Shown: positions 2,807-7,569 of the stretch, one piece after another
Position numbering within the stretch: position 1 is the first letter of the stretch
How the letters are laid out: the number at the start of each line of letters is the position of its first letter
Source of the DNA: Salipiger sp. H15
GTDB taxonomy: Bacteria; Pseudomonadota; Alphaproteobacteria; Rhodobacterales; Rhodobacteraceae
DNA length: 64,000 bases
Direction: 5' to 3'
Assembly (NCBI RefSeq): GCF_040409955.1
Contig: NZ_CP123385.1
Location: 62,001 to 126,000, forward strand
The notes under the pieces: model-generated
The model's database searches: none
What the model was told of the DNA's origin: nothing
The model's input: the letters and a program-made list of their open reading frames with translations, nothing else
Translations under genes and position numbers: made by a program

Positions 2807-3342
2807 CAGCGCGCCCCTTCCGCCCGGGCCATCGCGCTCGAGACCTCGAACCACAGTTCCCGCTTCAAGCGCGCCAGCAGCTGCTGATGGTCCTGATCCC
2901 AGGCCGGACGCATGTAGGGCGTCGCAGCGACATGGGCCGAGCCGAACTCCTGCACAAAGGCTTTGATTGCCTCATTCTTCGATCTGGCCTTCTCCGGGCC
3001 CATGAAGAGCTCGACGTGGGAATAGCCGCCGGCGATCTTCGCTGCCCGGCGCGCGCCGCGCATCGCCGTCAGCGCCTCGACGCGAGTCCCGCCGCCCTTC
3101 ATCACCTGGTGGAACTCGGCGCGCCCGATCTCGGCGCCAGCGCCCTTGGCCTTGGCCGAGACCTCGATGCTCTCTATGAGCTCGCCGGTTTCTTCCGGCG
3201 CGAGACTGCGCGCGATCCGCGCCATCGGCTCGAGCGCGCTGATCCCGGCCCGGCGCAGCGCGGCGCGCCCCGCCGACTTGCCCAGCTTCTCGAGCTGCTT
3301 CTCCAGATCGGAGAAGCACTTCAGGCTGACAAGTCCCGTCAT
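2806..3342 (-). CDS. HK97 gp10-family head-tail connector protein
   Basis: The gene encodes 178 residues starting MTGLVSLKCFSDLEKQLEKL, with an N-terminal amphipathic helix, a P-ETG-L segment (residues 48-54), a central FMGPEKARSKNEAIKAFVQE region and the HVAATPYMRPAWDQ motif near residue 140. That C-terminal PxMRPA pattern is a hallmark of the HK97 gp10 family, which closes the connector and links it to the tail. It overlaps the head-closure gene by four bases upstream and the DUF3168-like gene by one base downstream. Confidence 0.85.
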   Translation of the reverse strand: MTGLVSLKCFSDLEKQLEKLGKSAGRAALRRAGISALEPMARIARSLAPEETGELIESIEVSAKAKGAGAEIGRAEFHQVMKGGGTRVEALTAMRGARRAAKIAGGYSHVELFMGPEKARSKNEAIKAFVQEFGSAHVAATPYMRPAWDQDHQQLLARLKRELWFEVSSAMARAEGAR

Positions 3343-3686
3343 TGATCGGTCCTCGCGCTACCGGTGATCTCGATCCAGTGACGCCGCTTGACCTCCTTCA
3401 GCCCGACGATGTCGAACTCGAGCCCGTCGCAGGTCAGACGGTCTTTCGGCGTGATCCCCGCCGTGAAAGGTGACCAGCGCACCAGGAAGCGCGACATGAT
3501 GCTCGCCGCCACCTCGCCCGCCCTCCAGCGCTCGCCGTCCGAGACGTCCGTGCGTTTTGCCCGCACGGGCGCGCCGAGCGCAGCAAAGTCTCCGAGCTCC
3601 GAGGTGAAACCGTCGTCGCCAGTCACACGCCGAAGGACCTGCACTTCGCGATCGAGCACGTGCGCCCCGTTCAAAGGCGCACCCAC
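3339..3686 (-). CDS. Phage head closure protein (head-tail adaptor family)
   Basis: This is a 115-residue protein from a GTG at 3686. The middle part VRAKRTDVSDGERWRAGEVA followed by SRFLVRWS, and the ending LKEVKRRHWIEITGSA, match the SPP1 gp16/HK97 gp7-like adaptor family: small beta-barrels that stop DNA leaking after packaging. The start overlaps the end of the methyltransferase gene by 16 bases, so an inserted gene has been fitted tightly against it. The next gene overlaps by four bases. Confidence 0.8.
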   Translation of the reverse strand: MGAPLNGAHVLDREVQVLRRVTGDDGFTSELGDFAALGAPVRAKRTDVSDGERWRAGEVAASIMSRFLVRWSPFTAGITPKDRLTCDGLEFDIVGLKEVKRRHWIEITGSARTDQ

Positions 3687-4225
3687 CAGGTGAAATTCTG
3701 GTCAACCTCGAAGGTGCCGAAGCGCGCCTCGACCGCGCGGCGAACTCCCGAGAAATCATATCGCGGATCGTCGTTGTCGATGTCATGGCCGCCGATCCAG
3801 CCCCCGGCACGCACCTTCGGCAGCCAGGCCTCGATGTCGCTGAGCACACCGAGTTCCGAGTGGTCCCCGTCGAGAAAGACCAGGTCGAGAGAGGCGTCCT
3901 CGACCTGCGTGGCCGCCTCGATCGACGACATGGCGAAGATGGTGGTGCGCTTGCGGAACGGGCGCACGCGCCGCTCGGCCTCACTGCGATGCCGCTGGAC
4001 GCGGGCTGTGTCATGCCGGGCATGCTCGTCCCCCGTCGCAATGTACGCCGCCGGCTGCCGATCCATCGGGGCCCAGCTGTCCACCATCGTCAGGTTGAGA
4101 CCCGGCCGCGCGCGCAACACGGCTTCGGACAACCGACCGACAAGCACACCGATCTCGGCCATCCGGGCGACCTCGGGCAGGCGCCGCAGGATCGCCTGCG
4201 CCCGTTGCTCCACTGCACTTACCAT
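3671..4225 (-). CDS. Phage-borne class I SAM-dependent methyltransferase
   Basis: This protein of about 184 residues runs from the ATG at 4225; an alternative ATG is at 4237. It has a Rossmann-type methyltransferase pattern: EIGVLVGRLSEAVLRARPGL replaces the usual glycine-rich loop, followed by an LTMVDSW strand ending in Asp, a TTIFAMSSIEAA strand, then LDLVFLDGDHSELGVLSDIE and GGWIGGHDID. The LDGDH motif is characteristic of the Methyltransf_24/FkbM-related group that acts on sugars or small molecules. It lies between a glycosyltransferase and the head closure gene, which suggests modification of a virion glycan. Substrate is unknown. Confidence 0.75.
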   Translation of the reverse strand: MVSAVEQRAQAILRRLPEVARMAEIGVLVGRLSEAVLRARPGLNLTMVDSWAPMDRQPAAYIATGDEHARHDTARVQRHRSEAERRVRPFRKRTTIFAMSSIEAATQVEDASLDLVFLDGDHSELGVLSDIEAWLPKVRAGGWIGGHDIDNDDPRYDFSGVRRAVEARFGTFEVDQNFTWWVRL

Positions 4226-4812
4226 CCGACATCCCATGGTCTGGGGCGCCCGTGGAATGCCACGAAGCGCGCATCCTGCGGCAGCTGCTCAGCGCAGCGG
4301 TCCGCCTTGAAGCTGACCACCTGCCCCGGCAGAACGTCCTGCCAGCGCGCGGCCCGGTCGAGCCAGAGTGTTTCGAGAAATGCCTGGTCACCGCCGCGGC
4401 GGAACCTGCGCATCCAGGCGCCGGGGTTGGAGATCCACTTGCCCCAGACTTCGCCGCGTGCAGCCTTCGGCAGAAACATCACCGAGGACTGAAGCCCGGC
4501 AGGCCGGTAGACATCGCGCATGATGGCCAGTCGGCCGATGCCTGCCATGTCGCCGAGGTCGCCGACGATGGCGCTGTCGAGGTCCATCATCAGAAGATCG
4601 CCCGAGACGTCCGGCGAGAAGATTTCCATCTTCGACCACCAACCGGGCCAGCCGCAGCGAAGCGGCAAGACACCCGACCCGCTGACAGGCATGTCGGTCA
4701 GGCACCGGAACTCGGCGCCGGGCAAGTGCGCCGCGACCTGCATGCGCAGGCGGTCCACGTGCTCCGGCCGGAAATCGCCGCCCGATCGCAGCACGCATGC
4801 GACAATCGTCAT
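4219..4812 (-). CDS. Phage-borne glycosyltransferase-like protein (GT-A fold, DXD)
   Basis: The protein has 197 residues. It begins MTIVACVLRSGGDFRPEHVD, then has FRCLTDMP, a GWWSKMEIFSP segment and LLMMDLDSAIVGDL. The DLD triad after a hydrophobic strand is the metal-binding DXD of GT-A glycosyltransferases, and the WSK-E-F segment before it is common in the small glycosyltransferases of alphaproteobacterial phages. Later segments such as SSVMFLPKAARGEVW and RGGDQAFLE resemble their acceptor side. The start overlaps the preceding connector gene by four bases (ATGA), so it is translationally coupled to morphogenesis genes. Confidence 0.72.
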   Translation of the reverse strand: MTIVACVLRSGGDFRPEHVDRLRMQVAAHLPGAEFRCLTDMPVSGSGVLPLRCGWPGWWSKMEIFSPDVSGDLLMMDLDSAIVGDLGDMAGIGRLAIMRDVYRPAGLQSSVMFLPKAARGEVWGKWISNPGAWMRRFRRGGDQAFLETLWLDRAARWQDVLPGQVVSFKADRCAEQLPQDARFVAFHGRPRPWDVGW

Positions 4813-5378
4813 CCGATCACCCGGCGACTTCCGAAGACCTTGCGCATCGCGTCAAAGTCGAGCGGTGCACCCTGATCATAGGTGACACCGACCATATGGA
4901 TGATCGCGTCCTGGTCGTCGGCGCGCTGTGCGAGTGCCGGAACGTCACCGGCCCCGCTCGCTTCCGGATCGTCATGCCCCGCGTCGAAGTCGATCCGCAC
5001 CGGCCACGGGCGATCCGACAGCGCAGGAAGAGATGCCTGCGTGTCGAGGTCTACCGACCAGAGCGGAGCCGCCTCGACGGCGTACCATGCAGACGCCGAT
5101 AGCGTCTGCTCCGCGTGATCCGGATCGAGATAGGTGACCGAGCTCACCGTGCGCACTGGAAGGACAGGCAGGCAGGCCGGAAAGCTCCAACCTGCCAAGG
5201 ACAATCTGAACCCGGTCGGCAGCAGCACGCGCCCGGTGAAGGCCTCGTATCGCGCCGTTTCCGCCCGGATCAGCTGGGTCAGCCTGTCGTCGTCTGCATC
5301 GGCCCCAATTCGCAAGGCAAGCTTCAGGACATCCAGGTCAACCGCGAGACCGGTTGGATTGCTGCGGGTCATCAGCAT
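4809..5378 (-). CDS. Head-tail connector protein (phiE125 gp8/HK97 gp6-like)
   Basis: This 189-residue protein starts at the ATG at 5378 or the one at 5372. It opens with a helical segment (LDVLKLALRIGADADDDRLT and QLIRAETARYEAFTGR), followed by beta strands VRTVSSVTYLDPDHAEQTLS and PVRIDFDAGHDDP. This is the arrangement of the phiE125 gp8/gp6-like adaptor that forms the ring beneath the portal. It lies between the GT42/DUF115-like gene and the glycosyltransferase, so connector and glycan-type genes alternate here. Confidence 0.78.
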   Translation of the reverse strand: MLMTRSNPTGLAVDLDVLKLALRIGADADDDRLTQLIRAETARYEAFTGRVLLPTGFRLSLAGWSFPACLPVLPVRTVSSVTYLDPDHAEQTLSASAWYAVEAAPLWSVDLDTQASLPALSDRPWPVRIDFDAGHDDPEASGAGDVPALAQRADDQDAIIHMVGVTYDQGAPLDFDAMRKVFGSRRVIG

Positions 5379-6025
5379 TCGAGCGCCTCCTCGAGGTCAG
5401 CAAAGCGGTAGTTGCGCAGCGCCGAGATCGGACTGCAGTTGACGACCTCGACTCCCATCGCCGCGATCGGTTCAGCGACGGCATCGGTGCAGCGGCGCCA
5501 CCGATCGGTGTTCGCCGCCGTCGGATTGCTCAGCCCCTCGGGATGGCTTCCGTGCCAGTGCAGGCCGTGGTCGACGCGCATGTCGAAGCCGACCAGCGCG
5601 ACCCGGCGCGGCTGCATCTGCACCGCGAGGTTCAGCATGTGGAATCCGCTGTTGCCCGCCCAGCCCACCGAGCCCCGCTCGATCAGGCCGAGGCGATCAC
5701 CTTCGCGGTTGGTGCGCAGGTGCTGCACGCCCCAGCCTTGCCGCGCGGCCTTGCGGTCCGCGCAGAGCTTCAGTCCCCGGAAGTCGGAGACGCCGCCGTA
5801 TCGCTGCCACCAGGCGAGGTCGCAGCCGTAGAGGACTTCCGCCCAGGGCGCGAGTTGCCAGGCGTTGTTGATGGCGATGACTCGGGCGCGGCCGCGGGCT
5901 CGCTCGAGACAGACGCTTCCGGCGCTTGGCCCGCCTCCGACGACGACGATGCAGTCTCCTCGCCAGTCTGGCCACCAGTCTGGACGACCGGGTCGGAGGA
6001 AGGGTCCGACTTGCCCGCGGGGCCC
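5372..6025 (-). CDS. GT42/DUF115-like Rossmann protein lacking its own start codon
   Basis: The frame is open from 6085 to a TGA at 5372 and contains a convincing protein: DCIVVVGGGPSAGSVCLERA, VIAINNAWQLAPWAEVLYGC, AGNSGFHMLNLAVQMQP and RRVALVGFDM, then HWHGSHPEGLSNP. The GxGPS loop, an Asn-containing strand and the SGxxMxxxA...L.GxD pattern recall the GT42 sialyltransferase/DUF115 (MptE-like) fold seen in phage proteins. No ATG, GTG or TTG precedes GTG 5728, which lies well inside the conserved part. The frame is -1 relative to the 5770-6162 gene. A G GGC CCC heptamer at 6019-6025 could allow slippage, or an indel may have broken the start. Coordinates begin at that heptamer. Confidence 0.6.
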   Translation of the reverse strand, partial: GPRGQVGPFLRPGRPDWWPDWRGDCIVVVGGGPSAGSVCLERARGRARVIAINNAWQLAPWAEVLYGCDLAWWQRYGGVSDFRGLKLCADRKAARQGWGVQHLRTNREGDRLGLIERGSVGWAGNSGFHMLNLAVQMQPRRVALVGFDMRVDHGLHWHGSHPEGLSNPTAANTDRWRRCTDAVAEPIAAMGVEVVNCSPISALRNYRFADLEEALEC

Positions 6026-6162
6026 GCCTCCTTCTCCACGTGGGGCACGGCACGCCCGCGCTTGATCAGGTCCTTGGCGATGCGATCATCGACATCCTTG
6101 GGGACGTTTCGCTTCAGATTTCCGTAGCTGCCAATCATGCTGCGCAGCGGCTTGATCCACAT
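5770..6162 (-). CDS. Small phage head-region protein with acidic, Ser/Pro/Glu-rich tail
   Basis: From the ATG at 6162 the product is 130 residues. Residues 1-40 (MWIKPLRSMIGSYGNLKRNV, then DRIAKDLIKRGRAVP) match the short proteins often found right after the capsid gene in alphaproteobacterial phages. From about residue 45 the sequence becomes low-complexity (Glu, Ser, Ala, Pro, Gly). It then overlaps the GT42/DUF115-like frame by about 230 bases, which is unusual. The natural protein may end earlier or be fused to the next frame by -1 slippage. Function is unknown. Confidence 0.6.
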   Translation of the reverse strand: MWIKPLRSMIGSYGNLKRNVPKDVDDRIAKDLIKRGRAVPHVEKEAGPAGKSDPSSDPVVQTGGQTGEETASSSSEAGQAPEASVSSEPAAAPESSPSTTPGNSRPGRKSSTAATSPGGSDTAASPTSGD

Positions 6163-6240: not shown

Positions 6241-7569
6241 TCAGCCCGAGACATTGCCGAAGTCGCCGGTGATCAGCGCGGCAGAGCGCTTGATCGCAAG
6301 CGCGAGCCGCTCCTCGGCGCGCACGGTGATCATGTTCTTGATGAAGTTGTCGCGATCCTCGGAGGAAGCGATGACCTCGGGGTCCATGCGGTCATAGATC
6401 GTGGCCGCCATCTTGAAGGCGCCGACGAGGAATTCGTCGGCATCCATCGAGGGCGTCGCAACCACCGGCTGTCCCCAGAGCTGGGGACCGGACATCTGCA
6501 TGACGTTGGCAAAGATGTAGCGCTGCTCGCCGTCCTTGGTCAGCTCGATGCGCGCCCAGTCGGTCGGGTGCAGCACGATGCCGTCTGCCGGATAGTCCGA
6601 CAGCGAAGCCTGCAGAAGCGCGAGGCGGAGCTGGTCGATCATCGTCTCGCCGGCCACCATGAAGGCAGCCGCGTAGTCGGTCGCTTCGGTCTTCAGGCCC
6701 GAGAGGTTCTGGCCGGTGCCATCGCCGCTCAGGAGCTGCAGCTCTTCCTTCAGCAGAAGGCCGTAGCGCAGCTCGCCGTCGATCTCGGTCTCGAGCTGGG
6801 CGGCGTCTTCCATCGCTTGACGCGAGACCGGAACCCAGTGGGCGATGGTCCGCACGTTGGCATCCGCCGACGCCCACTCGTAGACCGACTCGGGTTTCTG
6901 CGCGCCTTCGCTGACCATGCCGGCGTTGTTGGTGCGGGTGATCTGCTTGGCGTACTCGATCGAGTTCGACGTGGTGCGGCCCTGCGTCAGCAGTTGGCGC
7001 ACGGTCATCTGCCGGCGCGGCAGGCCGACGATCTCGGCTTCGCGGTCCGACCAGATCAGCGCGCCGGCCGAGCCGGTGATCGAAGTGATCGCCTGGCGCA
7101 CGTTCAGCGACATGCGCGCGGTGCCCTTGCAGCCCGCACTGGTGAAGGCCTTGACCTCGTCACTGGTCGCGAAGCGCTGGCCGACGCTCTGCTGCGCGTC
7201 TCCGCCACGACCGCCGCGTTCCGCGAGCTGCTGCTCGACCTCGGTGTTGCGGGTCTCGAGCTGCTCGAGGCGGCCGATCAGCTTCTGCTGCGCATCGTTC
7301 AGCGCCTTCTGCGACGTGAGCAACTCGTCGGCCTTGGCCTTGAGTTCGTCGGTGGTGCGGCCCTGGTCCCGGGTCTGCTTCAGCGCATCCTCGGCAGTTT
7401 GCTTCACGCCACCCTCGATCCGCTCCATCTGCTGCTGCACATCCTTCAGCAGACGTTCCAGATCGCCCGGGGCACCATCGGCGCGGGGGTTGCCCATCAC
7501 GCCAACAGGGCGCACGGCAGCGAGGGCCGACAGCGAAACCGCCGGCATCATCAATCGTTTCATGATCAT
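6241..7569 (-). CDS. HK97-family major capsid protein
   Basis: This protein has up to 442 residues. The ATG at 7563 has better ribosome-binding-site spacing than the ATG at 7569. Residues 35-120 form a charged coiled-coil scaffold (delta domain), for example LERLLKDVQQQMERIEGG and LIGRLEQLETRNTEVEQQL, normally removed by the phage protease. The mature part has the HK97 fold signature: ITSITGSAGALIW, WVPVSRQAMEDAAQLETEID, LLSGDGTGQNLSGL, DGIVLHPTDWARIELTKD and GQPVVATPSMD. It follows the protease gene by five bases. Confidence 0.95.
   Translation of the reverse strand: MIMKRLMMPAVSLSALAAVRPVGVMGNPRADGAPGDLERLLKDVQQQMERIEGGVKQTAEDALKQTRDQGRTTDELKAKADELLTSQKALNDAQQKLIGRLEQLETRNTEVEQQLAERGGRGGDAQQSVGQRFATSDEVKAFTSAGCKGTARMSLNVRQAITSITGSAGALIWSDREAEIVGLPRRQMTVRQLLTQGRTTSNSIEYAKQITRTNNAGMVSEGAQKPESVYEWASADANVRTIAHWVPVSRQAMEDAAQLETEIDGELRYGLLLKEELQLLSGDGTGQNLSGLKTEATDYAAAFMVAGETMIDQLRLALLQASLSDYPADGIVLHPTDWARIELTKDGEQRYIFANVMQMSGPQLWGQPVVATPSMDADEFLVGAFKMAATIYDRMDPEVIASSEDRDNFIKNMITVRAEERLALAIKRSAALITGDFGNVSG

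Follow-up and report, generated by a model that had tools for sequence, protein, structure and literature searches.

A putative programmed −1 frameshift joins a capsid-adjacent protein to a GT42-like domain in a phage glycan-type module of Salipiger sp. H15

Gene organization of the module

The window analysed here is a stretch of 64,000 nucleotides from Salipiger sp. H15 (contig NZ_CP123385.1, positions 62,001 to 126,000), and it contains a phage head-tail gene block in which three co-directional genes for sugar-type enzymes are located between the capsid and the head-closure genes. Sequence comparison indicates, with good confidence, that these genes would form a head- or neck-associated glycan module whose first enzyme would arise through a conserved programmed −1 ribosomal frameshift, as a fusion to a small protein encoded by open reading frame (ORF) A. 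Comparable layouts are found repeatedly among phages of Alpha- and Gammaproteobacteria. The features of the locus are the following; in slip sites, the first space marks a codon boundary of the 0 frame.

6241..7569, reverse strand: major capsid protein (HK97 type), the gene preceding the module (TIGR01554, 187.7 bits; phrog_10, 8e-75)
5770..6162, reverse strand: ORF A, small head-region protein of 130 amino acids, ATG at 6162 (phrog_2616, 1e-6)
6019..6025, reverse strand: alternative in-phase heptamer G GGC CCC, about 20 nucleotides upstream of C CCT
6001..6004, reverse strand: proposed −1 slip site C CCT (0 frame ...GAC CCT TCC..., −1 frame ...CCC TTC...)
5372..6162, reverse strand: proposed frameshift product of 263 amino acids, predicted as 54 from ORF A plus 209 from the −1 frame
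5372..5983, reverse strand: GT42/MAF-like glycosyltransferase-fold domain in the −1 frame, starting near PDWWPDWRG
4809..5378, reverse strand: gp6-like head-tail connector (TIGR02215, 44.9 bits, cut-off 39)
4219..4812, reverse strand: GT8-fold (glycogenin/LgtC-like) glycosyltransferase with a DXD motif
3671..4237, reverse strand: S-adenosylmethionine-dependent methyltransferase (PF13578, Methyltransf_24, 53.2 bits, cut-off 26.3)
3339..3686, reverse strand: head completion/closure protein (PF05521, 45.5 bits)

The initial annotation had described three glycan-type enzymes among connector genes, and this description held: enzyme-type folds or families were found, the genes are co-directional and their position is conserved in relatives. 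The boundaries that it gave to a GT42-like gene (5372-6025) did not, since the −1 frame of ORF A, in which this domain is written, contains no ATG, GTG or TTG ahead of the Rossmann motif in the window; the missing start and the frameshift arrangement had gone unseen.

Frame relation and slip site in relatives

Loci were collected from IMG/VR scans, one genome per species, the window and phage records fetched earlier. Domain placements were accepted with a profile start at or before position 6, an end at or beyond 160 and E up to 1e-40, weaker relatives being dropped, and 189 placements yielded 110 non-redundant loci, window included. The viral scans contributed the best 80 of 454 and the best 80 of at least 574 confirmed loci, and the sample leans to close relatives. 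In 51 of the 110 loci the GT42-like domain is immediately preceded by the ORF A domain, which is absent or far in the other 59. Forty-nine of these 51 show the −1 relation, two are uninterrupted in-frame fusions (L108 and L135) and none uses the third frame. In 41 of the 49 ORF A loci the −1 frame runs from its last stop to the Rossmann motif without any ATG, GTG or TTG, while 58 of the 61 remaining loci carry one at −60 to +12 of the GT42-like domain, although these counts are not fully independent, the classes having first been split by the absence of a nearby start codon and the ORF A hidden Markov model (HMM) having been built from the class so defined. The start in these remaining loci is often an ATG just ahead of the PDWWPDW-like domain start, for example MRPPDWWPDWRG. 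The downstream frame is −1, mostly startless and conserved across divergent loci, as expected of a programmed −1 frameshift. Within 148 related genomes the GT42-like family gave three matches, that of the window (9.8e-50) and two weak ones (5.4e-4 and 8.8e-4).

Shortly before the enzyme domain, 44 of the 49 ORF A loci have the tetramer C CCT in phase, against 5.4 expected, and none of 2000 synonymous resamplings, with codon usage pooled from the GT42-like frames, reached 44. For the first 35 loci the in-phase count was 32, compared with a mean of 3.8 and a maximum of 12 in 5000 resamplings; the other two phases gave 2 and 1, and the three phases gave 5, 4 and 5 in 40 loci of class S, the other class. 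In a scan of all in-phase tetramers C CCT ranked first, followed by T TTA and T TTG, so the codon after the site tends to be TTN; the base that follows C CCT is T in 30 cases, A in 10 and C in 4. The distance from motif to domain varies among loci, and alignment of the proteins therefore does not explain the motif. In 9 of the 44 loci the −1 frame has a stop no more than 10 codons ahead of the site, and in Tetraselmis viridis virus S20 such stops run right up to the CCC of the site. A conserved in-phase slippery sequence is accordingly present, which conforms only partly to the classic X XXY YYZ pattern; this heptamer was rejected as a general rule, many sites being just C CCT. The GGGCCCC beginning at 6025 was kept only as an alternative to the slip site of the window, the relatives agreeing on C CCT; it is absent from the 21 further loci listed, and is possibly a second slip site.

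Selection on the two frames

The pattern of substitutions changes at the site. In 29 pairs, mainly of alphaproteobacterial-type loci, taken from the 23 loci that passed the identity limits among 93 with a site, mismatches by 0-frame codon position were.032/.016/.124 upstream and.021/.104/.052 downstream, that is, changes fall at 0-frame third positions before the site and at −1-frame third positions after it. In the D3-like Pseudomonas phages the fraction of variable sites passes from.50/.44/.92 upstream to.19/.65/.15 downstream. There, the heptamer CCCAAAG (C CCA AAG) is invariant in all 48 distinct sequences, derived from 68, whereas its flanks vary. The D3-clade relatives that were scored (L276, L277, L278, L281 and L282) carry C CCT in 5 of 5 cases, a count outside which stand the remaining six of L276-L286 and L024. 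The selected reading frame hence switches at the site in two data sets, as a programmed −1 frameshift predicts. Sequencing error or a pseudogene was rejected as the origin of the arrangement, because 49 non-redundant loci share it and the downstream frame is still selected; transcriptional slippage was likewise set aside, no long homopolymer run being present at the sites printed.

The enzymes and ORF A

The GT42-like domain adopts a GT42 fold, and its conserved PDWWPDW falls inside the confident structural model. It matches PHROG 4603; against curated Pfam it gave just a weak, unrelated match to zf-RING_6, below the cut-off, and its identity to the MAF flagellin glycosyltransferase and to Cst-I and Cst-II of CAZy family GT42 is 10-14%, with no relevant Pfam match. 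Alignments of 46 and of 44 sequences show no variation at G18, D55, W58, W59, G132, D134 and H142, which suggests that these residues mark an active site. The glycosyltransferase at 4812-4219 combines a GT8 fold with a DXD motif and matches no Pfam family at E up to 10, and the methyltransferase at 4237-3671 is assigned from its PF13578 match. Sequence searches of the PDB with the GT42-like profile, the glycosyltransferase and the methyltransferase returned nothing. A role in defence was discarded, PADLOC having matched just the methyltransferase, once and weakly (E 0.027).

ORF A consists of about 45 conserved residues, a linker and a 0-frame tail that continues past the slip site. Among 34 ORF A relatives, 32 match phrog_2616 and 15 match the Pfam family DUF7302 (best E 5.6e-5); the PDB search with the ORF A profile gave nothing better than E 0.13, and tblastn of ORF A against phage records gave no match. 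The phrog_2616 family has matches in 17 of 289 alphaproteobacterial genomes searched. None of the 18 loci fetched besides the window shows a GT42-like ORF in the roughly 3 kb of sequence around it, and ORF A-like proteins therefore seem to exist without the enzyme, in prophages or not; of these loci, 4 match our ORF A HMM at E < 0.01 and 3 match the connector or head-closure HMMs.

Genomic neighbourhood and known systems

Flanks sufficient for scoring neighbours were available in 79 of the 110 loci (38 of the 49 with ORF A, 41 of the 61 others), and were scanned on one strand with HMMs built from the window's own proteins. Structural genes were found within 5 kb in 36 of 38 ORF A loci and 40 of 41 others. 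A broad presence outside structural operons, which would have spoken against the initial annotation, was therefore not found, structural genes being nearby in 76 of the 79. A glycosyltransferase or methyltransferase accompanies the domain in 26 of 38 and 26 of 41 loci, respectively. Contexts were also read for a minority of 76 phage records: Klebsiella phage Eowyn has the trio without an annotated connector nearby, Citrobacter phage phiNP has the GT42-like gene ahead of the terminase, and depositors labelled the GT42-like proteins of PAJU2 and Eowyn "structural protein".

The enzyme set had been taken as undescribed, a claim that must be withdrawn, as the records of PAJU2, PMG1 and vB_PaeS-D14Q already annotate such genes in the connector block, with no role stated. 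The Detrevirus phages PAJU2 and PMG1 (D3-like) have there a methyltransferase and one more gene besides the GT42-like one, and Pseudomonas phage vB_PaeS-D14Q a GT42-like gene, a GT9-like enzyme and a methyltransferase. PMG1 gp7/gp8 display the overlapping −1 arrangement with C CCA AAG. These records differ from the present proposal in that the genes are separate or late-starting and no frameshift is annotated: in PAJU2 the GT42-like protein is a standalone gene after Hc1, and in D14Q the gene has a late start. Virus S20 repeats the order capsid, ORF A, GT42-like frame, connector, glycosyl transferase and methyltransferase, with CCC TTT immediately after the −1-frame stops; in contrast to the window, its deposited GT42-like coding sequence has a late start that falls within the domain, there is a second GT42-like copy behind it, and its glycosyl transferase and methyltransferase are not matched by the window-based HMMs. 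What is new relative to the records is the frameshift proposed for the ORF A/GT42-like pair, with its C CCT motif, the enzyme set itself having been annotated piecemeal in D3-like phages and S20.

Three further observations concern these loci. In L001 (6913-7590) and L038 (about 3075-3677), the connector gene is followed within the operon by a second GT42-like copy. In L017, L018 and L020 the upstream part of the GT42-like frame is shared with an overlapping collagen-like (Gly-X-Y) ORF. The connector block of vB_PaeS-D14C (L309) contains an annotated anti-CRISPR gene (5110-5469) that adjoins the sugar-enzyme genes.

Proposed mechanism and alternatives

In the model proposed, ribosomes would start ORF A at 6162 and, at C CCU (6004-6001), a fraction of them would slip back one base. 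The simplest slip would probably be that of tRNA-Pro(GGG) in the P site, from the wobble codon CCU to its cognate CCC; the tRNA-Pro set of the host comprises the GGG, TGG and CGG anticodons. Translation in the −1 frame would produce ORF A followed by the GT42/MAF-fold domain (54 + 209 amino acids), and the non-slipping ribosomes would end ORF A alone at 5770. A single start would in this way supply an anchor protein together with some anchor-enzyme fusion, placing the enzyme at the head or connector, and the GT8-fold transferase and the methyltransferase, encoded by the genes that follow, would elongate and cap the glycan, by which the virion may become glycosylated.

Several observations weigh against this model. 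The full CCCTTTN heptamer occurs at only 19 of the 44 sites, the motif being looser than classic slippery sites, and five of the 49 ORF A loci lack C CCT: the sequence is C CCA AAG in L050, an in-phase T TTT in L169 and L170, and C CCG in L011, and L048 shows no evident site. RNA structure downstream of the site is weak, with mean z of −1.04, −0.80 and −0.61 in three windows and values below −1.5 in 12, 9 and 7 of 44 loci. The sequences GGAGG/AGGAG are enriched beyond the synonymous expectation about 28 nucleotides upstream of CCT (mean longest match 5.07 versus 4.40 ± 0.15, scored against a Shine-Dalgarno consensus), which is farther upstream than known Shine-Dalgarno stimulators. A TTG or GTG lies 24 nucleotides upstream of the heptamer in 44 of the 48 D3-like sequences, where initiation would be possible. 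The enzyme is a separate gene in many relatives, and tethering is thus not essential. Finally, the host genome (G000, 6.1 Mb, rated 100% complete) gave no match to NeuB or to CTP_transf_3, a family that includes CMP-sugar synthetases; a sialic-type (CMP-nonulosonate) donor for the GT42-like domain is therefore doubtful.

The Shine-Dalgarno-like enrichment and the TTG/GTG codons of the D3-like phages would be accommodated if the GT42-like domain were translated alone and unfused, after re-initiation within ORF A or from a non-standard start codon. This we consider very improbable: the 41 loci devoid of any ATG, GTG or TTG, the 9 in which −1-frame stops approach to within 10 codons of the site and the 4 of 48 D3-like sequences with no start codon in the −1 frame all argue against it, and it leaves the conservation of C CCT and CCCAAAG, as well as the in-frame fusions, unexplained. 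The lack of a NeuB or CTP_transf_3 match, on which no such CMP-sugar is expected, together with the label given to the PAJU2 protein, would fit a catalytically dead neck domain kept for its fold; the seven invariant residues, suggestive of an active site, the GT8-fold or methyltransferase gene that co-occurs in 52 of 79 scorable loci and the possibility that another sugar nucleotide is the donor make this unlikely. Somewhat less unlikely, though still a minority view, is that the frameshift is real and the enzymes act on the host surface or other host glycans, for instance in receptor masking, their place in the late operon being incidental. The glycosyltransferase and methyltransferase folds suit polysaccharide modification and the Eowyn trio has no annotated connector nearby, but the fusion to a small protein encoded just after the capsid, the structural neighbours in 76 of 79 loci and, again, the PAJU2 label point to the virion.

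Significance

Programmed −1 frameshifting in phage operons is of a known kind, exemplified by the lambda G/GT tail-assembly chaperone, in whose morphogenesis operon a −1 slip at GGGAAAG generates a C-terminally extended form. The present case differs in that the extension is an enzyme fold, the gene is next to the capsid and the motif is mostly C CCT. In some mycobacteriophages, virion proteins are glycosylated by glycosyltransferases of the structural operon, a parallel at the level of the idea. A broader proposal, advanced tentatively, is that of a widespread unannotated recoding, in which a non-classic C CCU −1 slip in tailed phages of Alpha- and Gammaproteobacteria would display a glycosyltransferase on a capsid-adjacent anchor at a set ratio, and virions would carry the tethered enzyme or be decorated in place by it with its GT8-fold and methyltransferase partners.

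If correct, the model would add a conserved frameshift beside the capsid gene in head-tail operons. Its C CCU motif would often escape searches for classic heptamers, and the late-starting GT42-like genes in several records would be accounted for. Moreover, a head-region protein linked to a glycosyltransferase would offer a route to ask whether temperate proteobacterial phages build virion glycans.

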